Source: Streptomyces sp. Alt3
GTDB lineage: Bacteria > Actinomycetota > Actinomycetes > Streptomycetales > Streptomycetaceae
Direction of reading: 5' to 3'
Assembly (NCBI RefSeq): GCF_030719215.1
Contig: NZ_CP120983.1
Coordinates: 2,728,001-2,792,000, forward strand
Length of the DNA stretch: 64,000 bases
The position numbers and the translations under genes are program-made. This document shows positions 45,191-48,520 of the stretch, piece by piece. Below the pieces are notes generated by a model that saw only the letters and a list, made by a program, of their open reading frames with translations, was not told the DNA's origin and did not search any database. Positions within the stretch are counted from its first letter, which is position 1. Each line of letters starts with the position of its first letter.

Positions 45191-45244
45191 TTGACTTCCC
45201 TCATCCGCGATATATCGTGTTGGAAAGAGACGCGATATGTTGCG
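45191..45244 (+). promoter_or_regulatory. promoter and PadR-type operator of the DUF4097-PadR operon
   Basis: TTGACT (45191-45196) and TATCGT (45213-45218), 16 bp apart, form the promoter. The palindrome CGATATATCG (45208-45217) covers the -10. A second copy of its left half, CGCGATATGTTG, lies at 45231-45242. ATAT-centred repeats of this kind are typical PadR targets, and the operon's second gene encodes a PadR protein. Confidence 0.6.
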
Positions 45245-45272
45245 TCGTGCCATTCAGCGGGAGGTCAGATCC

Positions 45273-46130
45273 ATGCCCGAGTCGACGTGGACCGTCGCCG
45301 AGCCCCGGAAGCTCGCGTTCGACGAACCCGTGACAGCGCTCAACGTGCGCATCGTCGACGGAGCGATCAACGTCGTCGGCACGGACGAACCGGCCGCACG
45401 GCTGGAGGTCTCCGCGATCGACGGGCCACCGCTGATCGTGACCCTGGTGGACGGCACGCTCTCCGTCGCCTACGAGGACCTTCCGTGGCAGGGCCTTCTG
45501 ACCTGGCTGGACCGCAGGACTCCGCGCCGCAGGGCCGCGGTCTCGCTGGCCGTACCGGCCGGGGCGGCGGTGGAGGTCGGCGTGATCGGCGCCGAGGCGG
45601 TCGTGTCGGGGATCCGGGGACGCACCGAGCTGCGCGGCATCTCCGGGGACAGCACCCTGGTGGGTCTCTCCGGCGTCGTGCGGGCCGAGACGGTGTCCGG
45701 CGGCCTGGAGGCCCAGGCCGTCACCGGCGACCTTCGGTTCCAGTCCGTGTCGGGTGATCTCACGGTCGTCGAGGGCGCGGGCACCTCGGTCCGGGCGGAG
45801 TCGGTGACCGGGCACATGGTGCTCGACCTCGACACCTCGCCGAAACCGACCGACATCAGACTGACCTCGGTGTCCGGTGAGATCGCCATCCGCCTGCCGC
45901 ACCCCGCCGACGCGAAGGTGGAGGCGAACACCGCGAGCGGGACCGTCTCCAACGCCTTCGAGGACCTGCGGGTGGGCGGCCAGTGGGGCGCGAAGAAGAT
46001 CACCGGCACCCTCGGCGCGGGCACGGGGAAGCTGAAGGCGACCACCGTCTCGGGTTCGATCGCCCTGTTGCGCCGGCAGGCCGCCCAGGACCACGCGCAT
46101 GATGCCGAGCCGACCGGAAAGGTGCTCTGA
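45273..46130 (+). CDS. DUF4097-family beta-helix protein
   Basis: 285 residues. A repetitive right-handed beta-solenoid pattern is formed by repeated G-x-T-x-L-x-G-x-S-G units (VSGIRGRTELRGISGDSTLVGLSGVVRAETVSGGLEA, and so on). There is no signal peptide. The pattern is that of DUF4097 adhesin-like domains, which in actinobacteria and Firmicutes pair with PadR and membrane-stress genes. GGGAGG lies 7 nt before ATG 45273. The stop is 1 nt from the PadR start, so they are co-translated. Confidence 0.85.
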   Translation: MPESTWTVAEPRKLAFDEPVTALNVRIVDGAINVVGTDEPAARLEVSAIDGPPLIVTLVDGTLSVAYEDLPWQGLLTWLDRRTPRRRAAVSLAVPAGAAVEVGVIGAEAVVSGIRGRTELRGISGDSTLVGLSGVVRAETVSGGLEAQAVTGDLRFQSVSGDLTVVEGAGTSVRAESVTGHMVLDLDTSPKPTDIRLTSVSGEIAIRLPHPADAKVEANTASGTVSNAFEDLRVGGQWGAKKITGTLGAGTGKLKATTVSGSIALLRRQAAQDHAHDAEPTGKVL

Positions 46131-46131
46131 C

Positions 46132-47109
46132 ATGGCCCCCGTATTCGCCCACGGCCGCTTGCGCCTGTATCTCCTCAAGCTTCTGGACGAGGCTCCCCGC
46201 CACGGCTACGAGGTGATCCGCCTCCTGGAGGAGCGCTTCCAGGGGCTGTACGCCCCGTCGGCGGGCACCGTGTATCCGCGCCTGGCCAAGCTGGAGGCCG
46301 AGGGCCTGGTGACCCACGCCACCGAGGGCGGCCGCAAGGTCTACTCCATCACCGACGCCGGACGGGCCGAGCTGGCGGGCCGGGGCGGCGAACTGGCGGA
46401 TCTGGAGCTGGAGATCCGCGACTCCGTCTCCGAGCTTGCGGCAGAGATCCGCGACGACGTGCGGGGCGCGGTCGGCCAGCTGCGCAGCGAGATGCGCGCG
46501 GCGGCCTCCGAGTCACGGCAGACCTCCGGCGGGGGCCGGAGCGGCTGGGACCCCGGCTTCGGGGAGAAGGAGGCATGGCGCCTGGCGAAGGAGGAGCTGC
46601 GCAAGGCGAAGCAGGAGTGGAAGGAACAGGCCCGAAGGGCGAAGGACGAGTCCCGCAAGGCCCGTGAGGACGCCGAGCAGGCACGCCGTCAGGCCCAGGA
46701 GGCGCACGAGAAGGCGCGGGAGCAGGTACAGAACGCCGCGCGCCAGGTCCAGGAGCACTTCGCTCGGGGCGACTGGCCGGCAGGCGTGCGGGACGGCCTG
46801 GCCGAGATCACCGGCCAGCTCGGCGGCTTCGCCAGGACGGGCACCTGGCCGTCGTACAGCCGCCCCGCACCGGAAGAGCCGGACATCGAGTGGGCAGCCG
46901 ACACCACGACCACCGGGGACCCGGCACGTGACCTGGACCGCCTGCTGGACCGCTTCCGTGACGACATCCGTGACGCGGCCCGGGACCGAGGCGTCACCGG
47001 GACCCAACTCTCCGAGGCACGCGGCCATCTGGCCACCGCCGCGACGCACATCGACTCGCTGCTGCGGGGAACGGCCGACGAGACGAAGGACCCCGAGGGC
47101 GCGTCCTGA
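46132..47109 (+). CDS. PadR-family regulator with long coiled-coil C-terminus
   Basis: 325 residues. The PadR winged helix is at 1-85 (LRLYLLKLLDEAPRHGYEVIRLLEERF, YPRLAKLEAEGLV). A very Lys/Arg/Glu/Ala-rich coiled coil follows (about 130-225, EELRKAKQEWKEQARRAKDE), then a helical tail. It is about twice the usual PadR length, and the coiled coil suggests binding to a partner or to DNA. It probably represses its own operon through the 45208-45242 sites. Confidence 0.88.
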   Translation: MAPVFAHGRLRLYLLKLLDEAPRHGYEVIRLLEERFQGLYAPSAGTVYPRLAKLEAEGLVTHATEGGRKVYSITDAGRAELAGRGGELADLELEIRDSVSELAAEIRDDVRGAVGQLRSEMRAAASESRQTSGGGRSGWDPGFGEKEAWRLAKEELRKAKQEWKEQARRAKDESRKAREDAEQARRQAQEAHEKAREQVQNAARQVQEHFARGDWPAGVRDGLAEITGQLGGFARTGTWPSYSRPAPEEPDIEWAADTTTTGDPARDLDRLLDRFRDDIRDAARDRGVTGTQLSEARGHLATAATHIDSLLRGTADETKDPEGAS

Positions 47110-47164: not shown

Positions 47165-47734
47165 TCAGCTCGCCCGGCGGCTCTCCCCGCCCTCTCCGTA
47201 CAGCGCCCGCTCCACCGTCGCGTAGGTCGCCCCGTTCTCGGCGAGCACATCGGCGACGGGGCCGGGACAGGCGGTCAGGGCCAGCAGCAGGTGCTCCTCG
47301 CCGATGAAGCGGTCACGCCGGCCGAGGGCGATGCGAAGGGACTTCTCCAGGATGCCCTTGGCGCCGCCGGTGAAGGGGCGCCGTCCGGACCACCGGCGTC
47401 TGTTGCCGCGCGCGCCCGCCAGGACTCCCTCACCGTGGACGCCCTCGACGCGGGCCAGGATCTCGGTGATGTCGATGCCGATACCGGCGAGTGCCTCGGT
47501 GTCCGCCTTGGTGAGCCCGCCCCGGCGGCGGGCCTCCGCGAGCGCCGCCTCCATGGAGGCACGCCGGTCGACGAGCCCGAGGGCGGCGACGGCGAAGGAG
47601 GCGCGGCTGCCCCTCCGATCCAGGAGGGAGAGAAGCAGGTGCTCCTCGGTGACGGAGTCCGCCTGGGCCTGCTCGGCATGAGTCACGGCGCCGGTCACGG
47701 TGGCCCGCGCCCCCTTGGTGAATCGCTCGAACAT
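47165..47734 (-). CDS. Clp N-terminal-domain protein without ATPase
   Basis: 189 residues made of two Clp_N repeats (MFERFTKGARATVTGAVTHAEQAQADSVTEEHLLLSLL and AKGILEKSLRIALGRRDRFIGEEHLLLAL). There are no AAA+ modules, so it cannot unfold proteins itself; it may act as adaptor, decoy or stress sensor. GGGAGG is 5 nt before ATG 47734. Its start shares one base with the stop of the upstream HTH gene (TGATG), so the two are coupled. Confidence 0.88.
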   Translation of the reverse strand: MFERFTKGARATVTGAVTHAEQAQADSVTEEHLLLSLLDRRGSRASFAVAALGLVDRRASMEAALAEARRRGGLTKADTEALAGIGIDITEILARVEGVHGEGVLAGARGNRRRWSGRRPFTGGAKGILEKSLRIALGRRDRFIGEEHLLLALTACPGPVADVLAENGATYATVERALYGEGGESRRAS

Positions 47735-47943
47735 CAATGCCTCCCGTACTTCTTGTGCACGGCCTGCCTGCTGACACCCAGCTCGGCAGCGATCTCCTGC
47801 CACGACCATCCCTGGACGCGGGCACTTCTCACCTGGACGGCTTCGAGTTGTTCTAGCAGCCTCCGCAGCGCGGCGACGGCCCGCAGCCCGACGCGCGGGT
47901 CGCGGTCACCGGCACGTGCGGCGAGATCCGTTGCTTCGGTCAT
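47734..47943 (-). CDS. small HTH DNA-binding protein coupled to the Clp_N gene
   Basis: 69 residues. An N-terminal helix-rich region ([24 protein letters not shown]) is followed by a helix-turn-helix, WSWQEIAAELGVSRQAVHKKYG. ATG 47943 is supported by a -10 TAGGTT ending 6 nt upstream, so the mRNA is leaderless. Both promoter elements lie in identical-class inverted repeats, which points to autoregulation. Confidence 0.85.
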   Translation of the reverse strand: MTEATDLAARAGDRDPRVGLRAVAALRRLLEQLEAVQVRSARVQGWSWQEIAAELGVSRQAVHKKYGRH

Positions 47944-47945
47944 AA

Positions 47946-47990
47946 TGTCAACCTACGTTGACATTCACTCCATGTCAATCAAAGTTGACA
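47946..47990 (-). promoter_or_regulatory. promoter with two 18-bp operators for the HTH-Clp_N operon
   Basis: Two inverted repeats of the form TGTCAA-N6-TTGACA lie at 47946-47963 and 47973-47990, 27 bp centre to centre. On the minus strand TTGACA (47973-47978) is the -35 and TAGGTT (47950-47955) the -10, spaced by 17 bp. One operator therefore covers each promoter element. The upstream operator also contains the stop codon of the preceding acetyltransferase gene. Confidence 0.75.
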
Positions 47991-48520
47991 TCATCGGTGG
48001 CGAGGAGTGCGTGGCGCTCCACGTCGTAGCGGACATCCCCGTAGCGGAGCTTGTTCCGCTCGATTCCCTCCGCGGCGAAGCCGGCCCGCAGGGCGACGGC
48101 GCAGGAGGCAGGGTTGTTCGTCCTGTGTCCGAGCTCCAGCCGGTGGAGCCCGAGATCGCCGAAGGCCCAGCCGGCCAGGGCCCGCAGCCCCGAGGAGGCG
48201 ACACCGGTCCCCCGGGCCGCCTCCGTGGTCCAGTACGAGACCCAGCCCGTGTCATGGACGTGGTTCACCGAGGTCACGGCGACGGATCCGAGTGCGACTC
48301 CCTCGCGGACGACCGCCCAGCTGTATCCACTGCCGGCCGCCCGCTCGTCATCCCGGTCTGCGATCCACTCCGAGGCCTCGGCCGTGGTCGTGACAGGCCG
48401 GGCGGCCTGCCGGGCCATCTCCGCGGGCGCGAAGGCGCGGAGCACCGCCGGAGCGTCGTCCGGCCGCCAGGGACGGAGCAGGAGCCCCTGGCCGGTCAGC
48501 AGTTCCGCCGTGTCGCTCAC
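47975..48520 (-). CDS. GNAT-family N-acetyltransferase (RimJ/RimL type)
   Basis: 181 residues. The GNAT core is LLLRPWRPDDAPAVLRAF, VSYWTTEAARGTGVASSGLRAL (acetyl-CoA loop) and HRLELGHRTNNPASCAVALRAGFAAEG, the pattern of ribosomal-protein or small-molecule acetyltransferases. GTG 48520 overlaps the stop of the upstream oxidoreductase gene (GTGA). Its last codons lie inside an operator of the next operon. Confidence 0.9.
   Translation of the reverse strand: MSDTAELLTGQGLLLRPWRPDDAPAVLRAFAPAEMARQAARPVTTTAEASEWIADRDDERAAGSGYSWAVVREGVALGSVAVTSVNHVHDTGWVSYWTTEAARGTGVASSGLRALAGWAFGDLGLHRLELGHRTNNPASCAVALRAGFAAEGIERNKLRYGDVRYDVERHALLATDDVNFD

Follow-up and report, generated by a model that had tools for sequence, protein, structure and literature searches.

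What controls a small operon that pairs a helix-turn-helix (HTH) protein with the N-domain of a Clp unfoldase, and what would such a pair respond to? The question is raised by a 64,000-nucleotide stretch of DNA from Streptomyces sp. Alt3 (the window), in which the original prediction had described a 69-residue HTH gene coupled through TGATG to a gene for a Clp_N protein without an ATPase, behind a promoter whose -35 and -10 elements each lie in their own TGTCAA-N6-TTGACA repeat. The features are as follows:

47165–47734, minus strand: Clp_N gene, 189 aa, two Clp_N repeats (ORF list and Pfam)
47732–47736, minus strand: TGATG overlap of the HTH stop and the Clp_N start (read from sequence)
47734–47943, minus strand: stand-alone HTH gene, 69 aa (ORF list and Pfam)
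47946–47963: proximal operator TGTCAACCTACGTTGACA, N6 spacer (sequence; conserved in relatives)
47950–47955, minus strand: -10 element TAGGTT, within the proximal operator, 6 nt before the ATG (read from sequence)
47973–47978, minus strand: -35 element TTGACA, within the distal operator (read from sequence)
47973–47990: distal operator TGTCAATCAAAGTTGACA, N6 spacer, 27 bp from the proximal one (sequence; conserved in relatives)
47975–48520, minus strand: GNAT acetyltransferase gene, the upstream neighbour of the HTH gene (sequence, ORFs and Pfam)

This description was confirmed throughout. The ORFs bear out the TGATG junction, which suggests that the two genes are translationally coupled; Pfam matches HTH families in the small protein and finds Clp_N (PF02861, E 1.3e-12, two stretches) and no AAA+ domain in the larger one; and counting gives 17 bp between the -35 and the -10. 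Both operators are exact TGTCAA-N6-TTGACA sites, and they are not expected by chance, because the pattern occurred 0 times in each of 100 dinucleotide shuffles; a search of the 8.65 Mb genome gave no further exact match. The promoter is apparently leaderless. Absent from the earlier description is an overlap: the distal operator contains the final codons of the GNAT gene (…DDVNFD-stop). A PadR-like regulator (46099–47109) also adjoins the pair and overlaps an upstream 297-aa ORF (45237–46130).

A larger regulon in the window genome was considered and rejected: two further places fall within one mismatch of the full N6 palindrome, both loci were inspected, and neither is tandem. Nor does this genome hold a second tandem of the exporter type described below. 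With neither place tandem, local autoregulation is all that is supported in the window genome. (N7 sites within one mismatch numbered 107 against 64 in the control, too many to interpret.)

The original prediction had named lack of conservation upstream of orthologues as what would count against it; the repeats were searched for and proved to be conserved. Among the 46 closest named relatives (all but three named Streptomyces or “[Kitasatospora]”), 44 have two exact N6 sites, separated by 27 bp in 35 genomes and by 28 bp in nine, and in 41 of the 44 the start codon begins 3 nt past TTGAC. Within the proximal site, the third and fourth interior positions are T and A in 43 of the 44 each, as expected if they form part of a -10, and the distal interior is variable. 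There are two exceptions: L026 has one site, mismatched, and L047 has lost most of the HTH gene, has a short Clp_N ORF and retains one operator, so that its locus looks like a case of decay.

Farther out, a search with the HTH protein gave 73 matches in 62 of 296 Actinomycetota genomes (E <= 1e-6), and the surroundings of all 73 loci were inspected. A strict scan found two N6 sites at 46 of them, a single N6 site at 12, one N6 plus one N7 site at one, a single N7 site at one and none at 13; several of the last group have degenerate GCAA-type half-sites (e.g. GCAAC...GTTGAC). A same-strand match to the Clp_N model (the weakest at 18.8 bits) accompanies 61 of the 73 HTH genes. It is absent at the other 12, seven of which keep N6 sites (L141, L144, L145, L151, L152, L154 and L158); at two of these seven Clp_N-free loci, L152 and L154, an ABC exporter gene follows the HTH gene. 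In a class sample, N6 tandems were present in 124 of 394 genomes (29 of the 40 same-genus genomes) and N7 tandems in 105. The split pair with tandem operators is spread across Actinomycetota, and this is new: a search of the open-licence literature found no description of the pair, nor of the spacer rule and helix code set out below, and the pair is not described in the available portions of PMC10030653, PMC13284704, PMC12913811 and PMC7159879. At seven HTH-Clp_N loci (L143, L146, L148, L150, L153, L155 and L157), degenerate outer half-sites (GCAAC…GTTGAC) go together with VTRQA/NVTRQA helices.

The original prediction knew of no characterised example of such a system. That holds for the split arrangement; more generally it does not, since mycobacterial ClpC2, of a type (Rv2667) also present in other actinobacteria, is a characterised relative (PMC10030653). 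ClpC2 is a fusion of HTH and Clp_N that acts as an autorepressor and cyclomarin sponge: its operators are two tandem CGTCAAC-n5-GTTGACG sites over an apparently leaderless promoter, and cyclomarin A releases the repression, after which ClpC2 sponges cyclomarin A (PMC10030653). The likeness to the window system is extensive. First, the stand-alone HTHs are homologous to ClpC2 N-domains (hhalign probability 98.3%, E 2e-14), and in the alignment ClpC2 R57 and the acidic D46 match R42 and E31 of the window HTH. Second, as in ClpC2 (Rv2667 type), HTH and Clp_N occur with no AAA+ domain (Pfam and fold). Third, judged from sequence alone, the promoter is again apparently leaderless, with its -35 and -10 lying under two tandem GTCAA/TTGAC operators. 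The window pair is nevertheless set apart from ClpC2 proper, because ClpC2 is one chain whose operator amounts to GTCAA-N7-TTGAC, whereas the window domains lie on separate, overlapping ORFs and the operators are N6. Unlike ClpC2 alone, moreover, the window pair coexists with a fused ClpC2 in one genome: a 249-aa paralogue with tandem N7 sites is encoded at about G000:C1:1311824-1312570 (L056, L090). Nine same-genus genomes of the phylum sample contain the split HTH in eight cases, the fused protein in seven and both in six. Because both forms are held by the same genome and by same-genus genomes, the window pair is, on the evidence of these sequences, a paralogous split system beside ClpC2. 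The window genome also encodes a third related HTH protein of 199 aa (L054, G000:C1:7071770-7071934), with 38% identity over the HTH and a GTCAA-N6-TTGAC site upstream.

The length of the spacer follows the architecture. Among tandem-site loci chosen by protein, the stand-alone HTH genes had N6 sites in 46 of 46 cases and the fused genes N7 sites in 19 of 19. A tandem search blind to protein gave the same division: the N6 pattern was found at 39 places in 37 of the 296 genomes, 38 of them at a stand-alone HTH and 0 at a fused ClpC2. For the N7 pattern there were 23 places in 21 genomes, of which 19 lie at a fused ClpC2 and none at a stand-alone HTH; the reversed pattern, run as a control, gave 0. 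The four leftover N7 places are another fused ClpC2 (L212), an HTH protein without Clp_N (L199) and two monooxygenases (L207, L221). This marking of architecture by spacer, N6 for stand-alone and N7 for fused, is also new.

The fold of the Clp_N protein gives a view of what the pair might sense. In the PDB, its AlphaFold model (pLDDT 86.7) best matches ClpC1 N-domains bound to rufomycin, ecumicin, cyclomarin or lassomycin, together with the C-domain of ClpC2 (8ad9). The cyclomarin contacts F2, F80 and E89 of ClpC1 (F96, F172 and E181 of ClpC2) have equivalents in the window protein. Across 47 near relatives, a number that counts the window itself, the three positions are conserved in 47, 46 and 45; they are less fixed farther out (45, 39 and 33 of 54 phylum sequences). 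Binding and induction can come apart: in M. tuberculosis, ilamycin and ecumicin are described as binding ClpC2 without inducing it (PMC12913811), so the inducer of the window pair cannot be deduced from binding alone.

Taken as a whole, the reading that is somewhat favoured here is that the window pair is a split, two-gene paralogue of the ClpC2 autorepressor and sponge. An HTH dimer would bind both N6 operators over the -35 and the -10 and would thereby shut off its own leaderless, translationally coupled operon; such autorepression seems likely, with good confidence. The Clp_N protein would mimic the N-domain of ClpC, keeping the residues that hold cyclomarin-type ligands in ClpC1 and ClpC2. 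A ClpC-targeting natural product or an unfolded protein on Clp_N might then cause the HTH/Clp_N complex to leave the DNA, as ClpC2 would suggest, and the extra Clp_N might mop up the ligand and spare ClpC. Belief and doubt are evenly balanced on this last part, Clp_N as ligand sensor and sponge, which is argued from ClpC2. The partnership of the two proteins is proposed because the same two domains form one chain in ClpC2, and the original suggestion of a “decoy for ClpC” would fit the characterised role of ClpC2, which sponges a drug directed at ClpC1. The defence-like ABC exporters that share such operators in some other genomes, described below, also speak for the reading. In tuberculosis ClpC1 is a drug target, and ClpC2 is known to act as a rescue system when one class of ClpC1 inhibitors is present; if the reading is true, the widespread split version would give antibiotic-producing genera a second, orthogonal sensor.

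The partnership is the step at which the strongest alternative departs. The HTH could repress its own operon autonomously, its level being controlled through proteolysis by ClpCP, with Clp_N as output only (an adaptor or competitor for ClpC) and no sensor at all. The genes are, after all, separate; the same operators persist beside HTH relatives that lack Clp_N, which means that the HTH is able to work alone; and one N6 tandem adjoins a clpX gene (a single case, L227 in G616, with a divergent ATPase-like ORF). Yet the pairing at 61 of 73 loci across the phylum and the natural fusion in ClpC2 argue for a physical link, and the cyclomarin contacts are kept in near relatives. An autonomous HTH therefore seems unlikely, and with the two genes separate, a requirement for Clp_N in repression is open to direct testing.

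Which of the two proteins reads the DNA bears on both the sensor reading and the published ClpC2 model. Taylor et al. placed DNA binding of ClpC2 in its C-domain (R185/R189) and dimerisation in its N-domain; the R185A/R189A changes weakened DNA binding and raised expression 2.0-fold (PMC10030653). By extension, Clp_N itself could bind the window operators, and the R185 position is indeed Arg in 45 of 47 near relatives. However, that position is Arg in the same genome's own ClpC too, and the second arginine, R189, is unlike ClpC2 in not being kept: none of the 47 near relatives has Arg there, against 17 of 54 phylum sequences. The N-domain crystal, moreover, covers residues 4–72, ending at 72 through proteolysis (PMC10030653); in the alignment residue 72 falls inside the HTH, before the recognition helix (...GV-TKQAAQKRF), so the published structure stops short of the part in question.

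The recognition helix itself supplies further evidence. In the window HTH it reads ...GVSRQAVHKK, and the residue after Q (here A61) covaries with base 5 of the half-site: A goes with GTCAA, and S or T with GTCAG. The comparison set was 102 loci chosen by protein similarity (73 HTH, 24 fused and 5 named), 70 of them with tandem sites; base 5 includes G at 2 of 62 A-type against 8 of 8 S/T-type tandem loci (Fisher p 4.8e-9, which is optimistic because the loci share ancestry). A larger count that includes loci found by the GTCAA pattern is biased and was left out. Both helix types occur side by side in G042, where L080 pairs A with GTCAA and L120 pairs S with GTCAG, and likewise in G028 (L068 and L121). 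By inspection, the S/T loci without a tandem pair (L130, L131, L136 and L160) have at least one GTCAG half-site each, and L131 and L136 additionally have a GTCAA/TTGAC site. Because of the covariation, the Clp_N-free loci that keep N6 sites and the unconserved R189, the HTH and not the Clp_N domain is most likely the DNA reader; that the HTH reads the operators seems very probable, and binding by Clp_N, rejected on the same three grounds, very improbable. Two predictions, that the HTH reads the two operators and that the promoter is built to be blocked by them, gain support from comparison: the conservation in 44 of the 46 near relatives, that in most orthologues across the phylum, and the covariation all point this way. 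The split pair may be regarded as a natural dissection of the DNA-reading domain and gives reason to re-examine the published ClpC2 model.

The fold of the HTH was compared as well. Its AlphaFold model (pLDDT 87.1; helices at 2-14, 16-43, 48-55 and 59-67) gave no Foldseek match at E <= 0.001, and VIA-align returned Fis and DeoR rows (Z 4.6-5.2), which may reflect a common arrangement only; 8ADA (ClpC2 4-72) was not among the rows. A search of a phage collection with the HTH gave no match. Another short HTH protein of the same broad family is RelI, of the M. tuberculosis RelS-RelI system (PMC13284704); unlike that system, the window pair has no adjoining RelS toxin, and unlike the window pair, relSI has no inverted repeats reported upstream in that paper. 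It is hardly credible that the window genes form a toxin-antitoxin-like pair akin to RelS-RelI in which Clp_N is a toxin that hijacks a protease: the HTH is weakly similar to RelI (9sdc, phmmer E 0.0011), itself thought to be derived from ClpC2 (PMC13284704), but the flanking ORFs are Clp_N, GNAT and PadR-like with no RelE/BrnT-like toxin gene next to the pair, and Clp_N resembles a ligand-binding N-domain.

Beyond the window genome, some tandems stand before other genes. N6 tandems were re-searched in ten f84 genomes and four others, most of them chosen for at least two sites. Seven of the ten f84 genomes (G341, G421, G485, G529, G545, G577 and G639) have a two-exporter layout, in which HTH-Clp_N and a divergent ABC exporter flank and share one tandem (L226, L234, L253, L254, L256, L258 and L259) and a second precedes another ABC exporter (L229, L230, L232, L233, L250, L257 and L260); this 7/7 count describes f84 genomes that were picked for at least two sites and then showed the layout. 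Two f84 genomes also have a tandem before a DUF998 gene (L231, L255), and an alpha/beta hydrolase gene has an N6 tandem in G050 (L220) and G654 (L252). The exporter, hydrolase and clpX sites hint at a detoxification regulon in some genomes. Tandem GTCAAGTGTGCTTGAC-type sites (L222, L262, L263 and L264) were set aside as not belonging to the ClpC2/HTH-Clp_N family, with no HTH-family or Clp_N match at any of the four; those at L263 and L264 precede small XRE-like ORFs, a different regulator with a look-alike operator.

The same kind of HTH also occurs with the N-domain of another unfoldase. In G601, a 125-aa protein (L242:566-940) consists of a ClpX C4 zinc domain (PF06689) followed by an HTH of the ClpC2 kind, with no AAA+ domain and with a tandem N7 site upstream. 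It has kin among named records in a Streptomyces zaomyceticus plasmid (WP_327166968.1, “ClpX C4-type zinc finger protein”) and in Nonomuraea gerenzanensis. In all, three loci (L242, L270:1477-1848 and L271:1486-1848) fuse the ClpX zinc domain to an HTH, with no AAA+, behind tandem N7 sites. Like the window pair, these proteins tie an HTH to a Clp unfoldase N-domain without AAA+ behind tandem sites; unlike it, they carry the ClpX zinc domain, are fused, and in the S. zaomyceticus and N. gerenzanensis cases have S after Q and tandem GTCAG-N7-CTGAC sites. The boldest element of the proposal, which draws on these three loci, is that the HTH would be coupled to N-domains from two Clp unfoldases and not one. 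A broader idea is put forward tentatively, doubt slightly outweighing belief: Actinobacteria at large may carry “unfoldase N-domain sentinels”, each a small HTH repressor linked, by fusion or as a coupled gene pair, to the Clp_N of ClpC or the zinc domain of ClpX, with an operator code in which the spacer follows architecture and the half-site follows the helix residue, and which act as parallel sensors within a genome, switching on sponges, exporters and detoxifying enzymes under Clp attack. Genomes can be searched with such a code, which would help to uncover further genes, such as those for exporters and modifying enzymes, that respond to Clp-directed natural products. Among the N7 tandems, those at L207:1606-2811 and L221 immediately precede genes for FAD-dependent monooxygenases, which are orthologous and belong to two genomes of the same genus, and another lies 2 nt before a methyltransferase gene (L243:662-1498).
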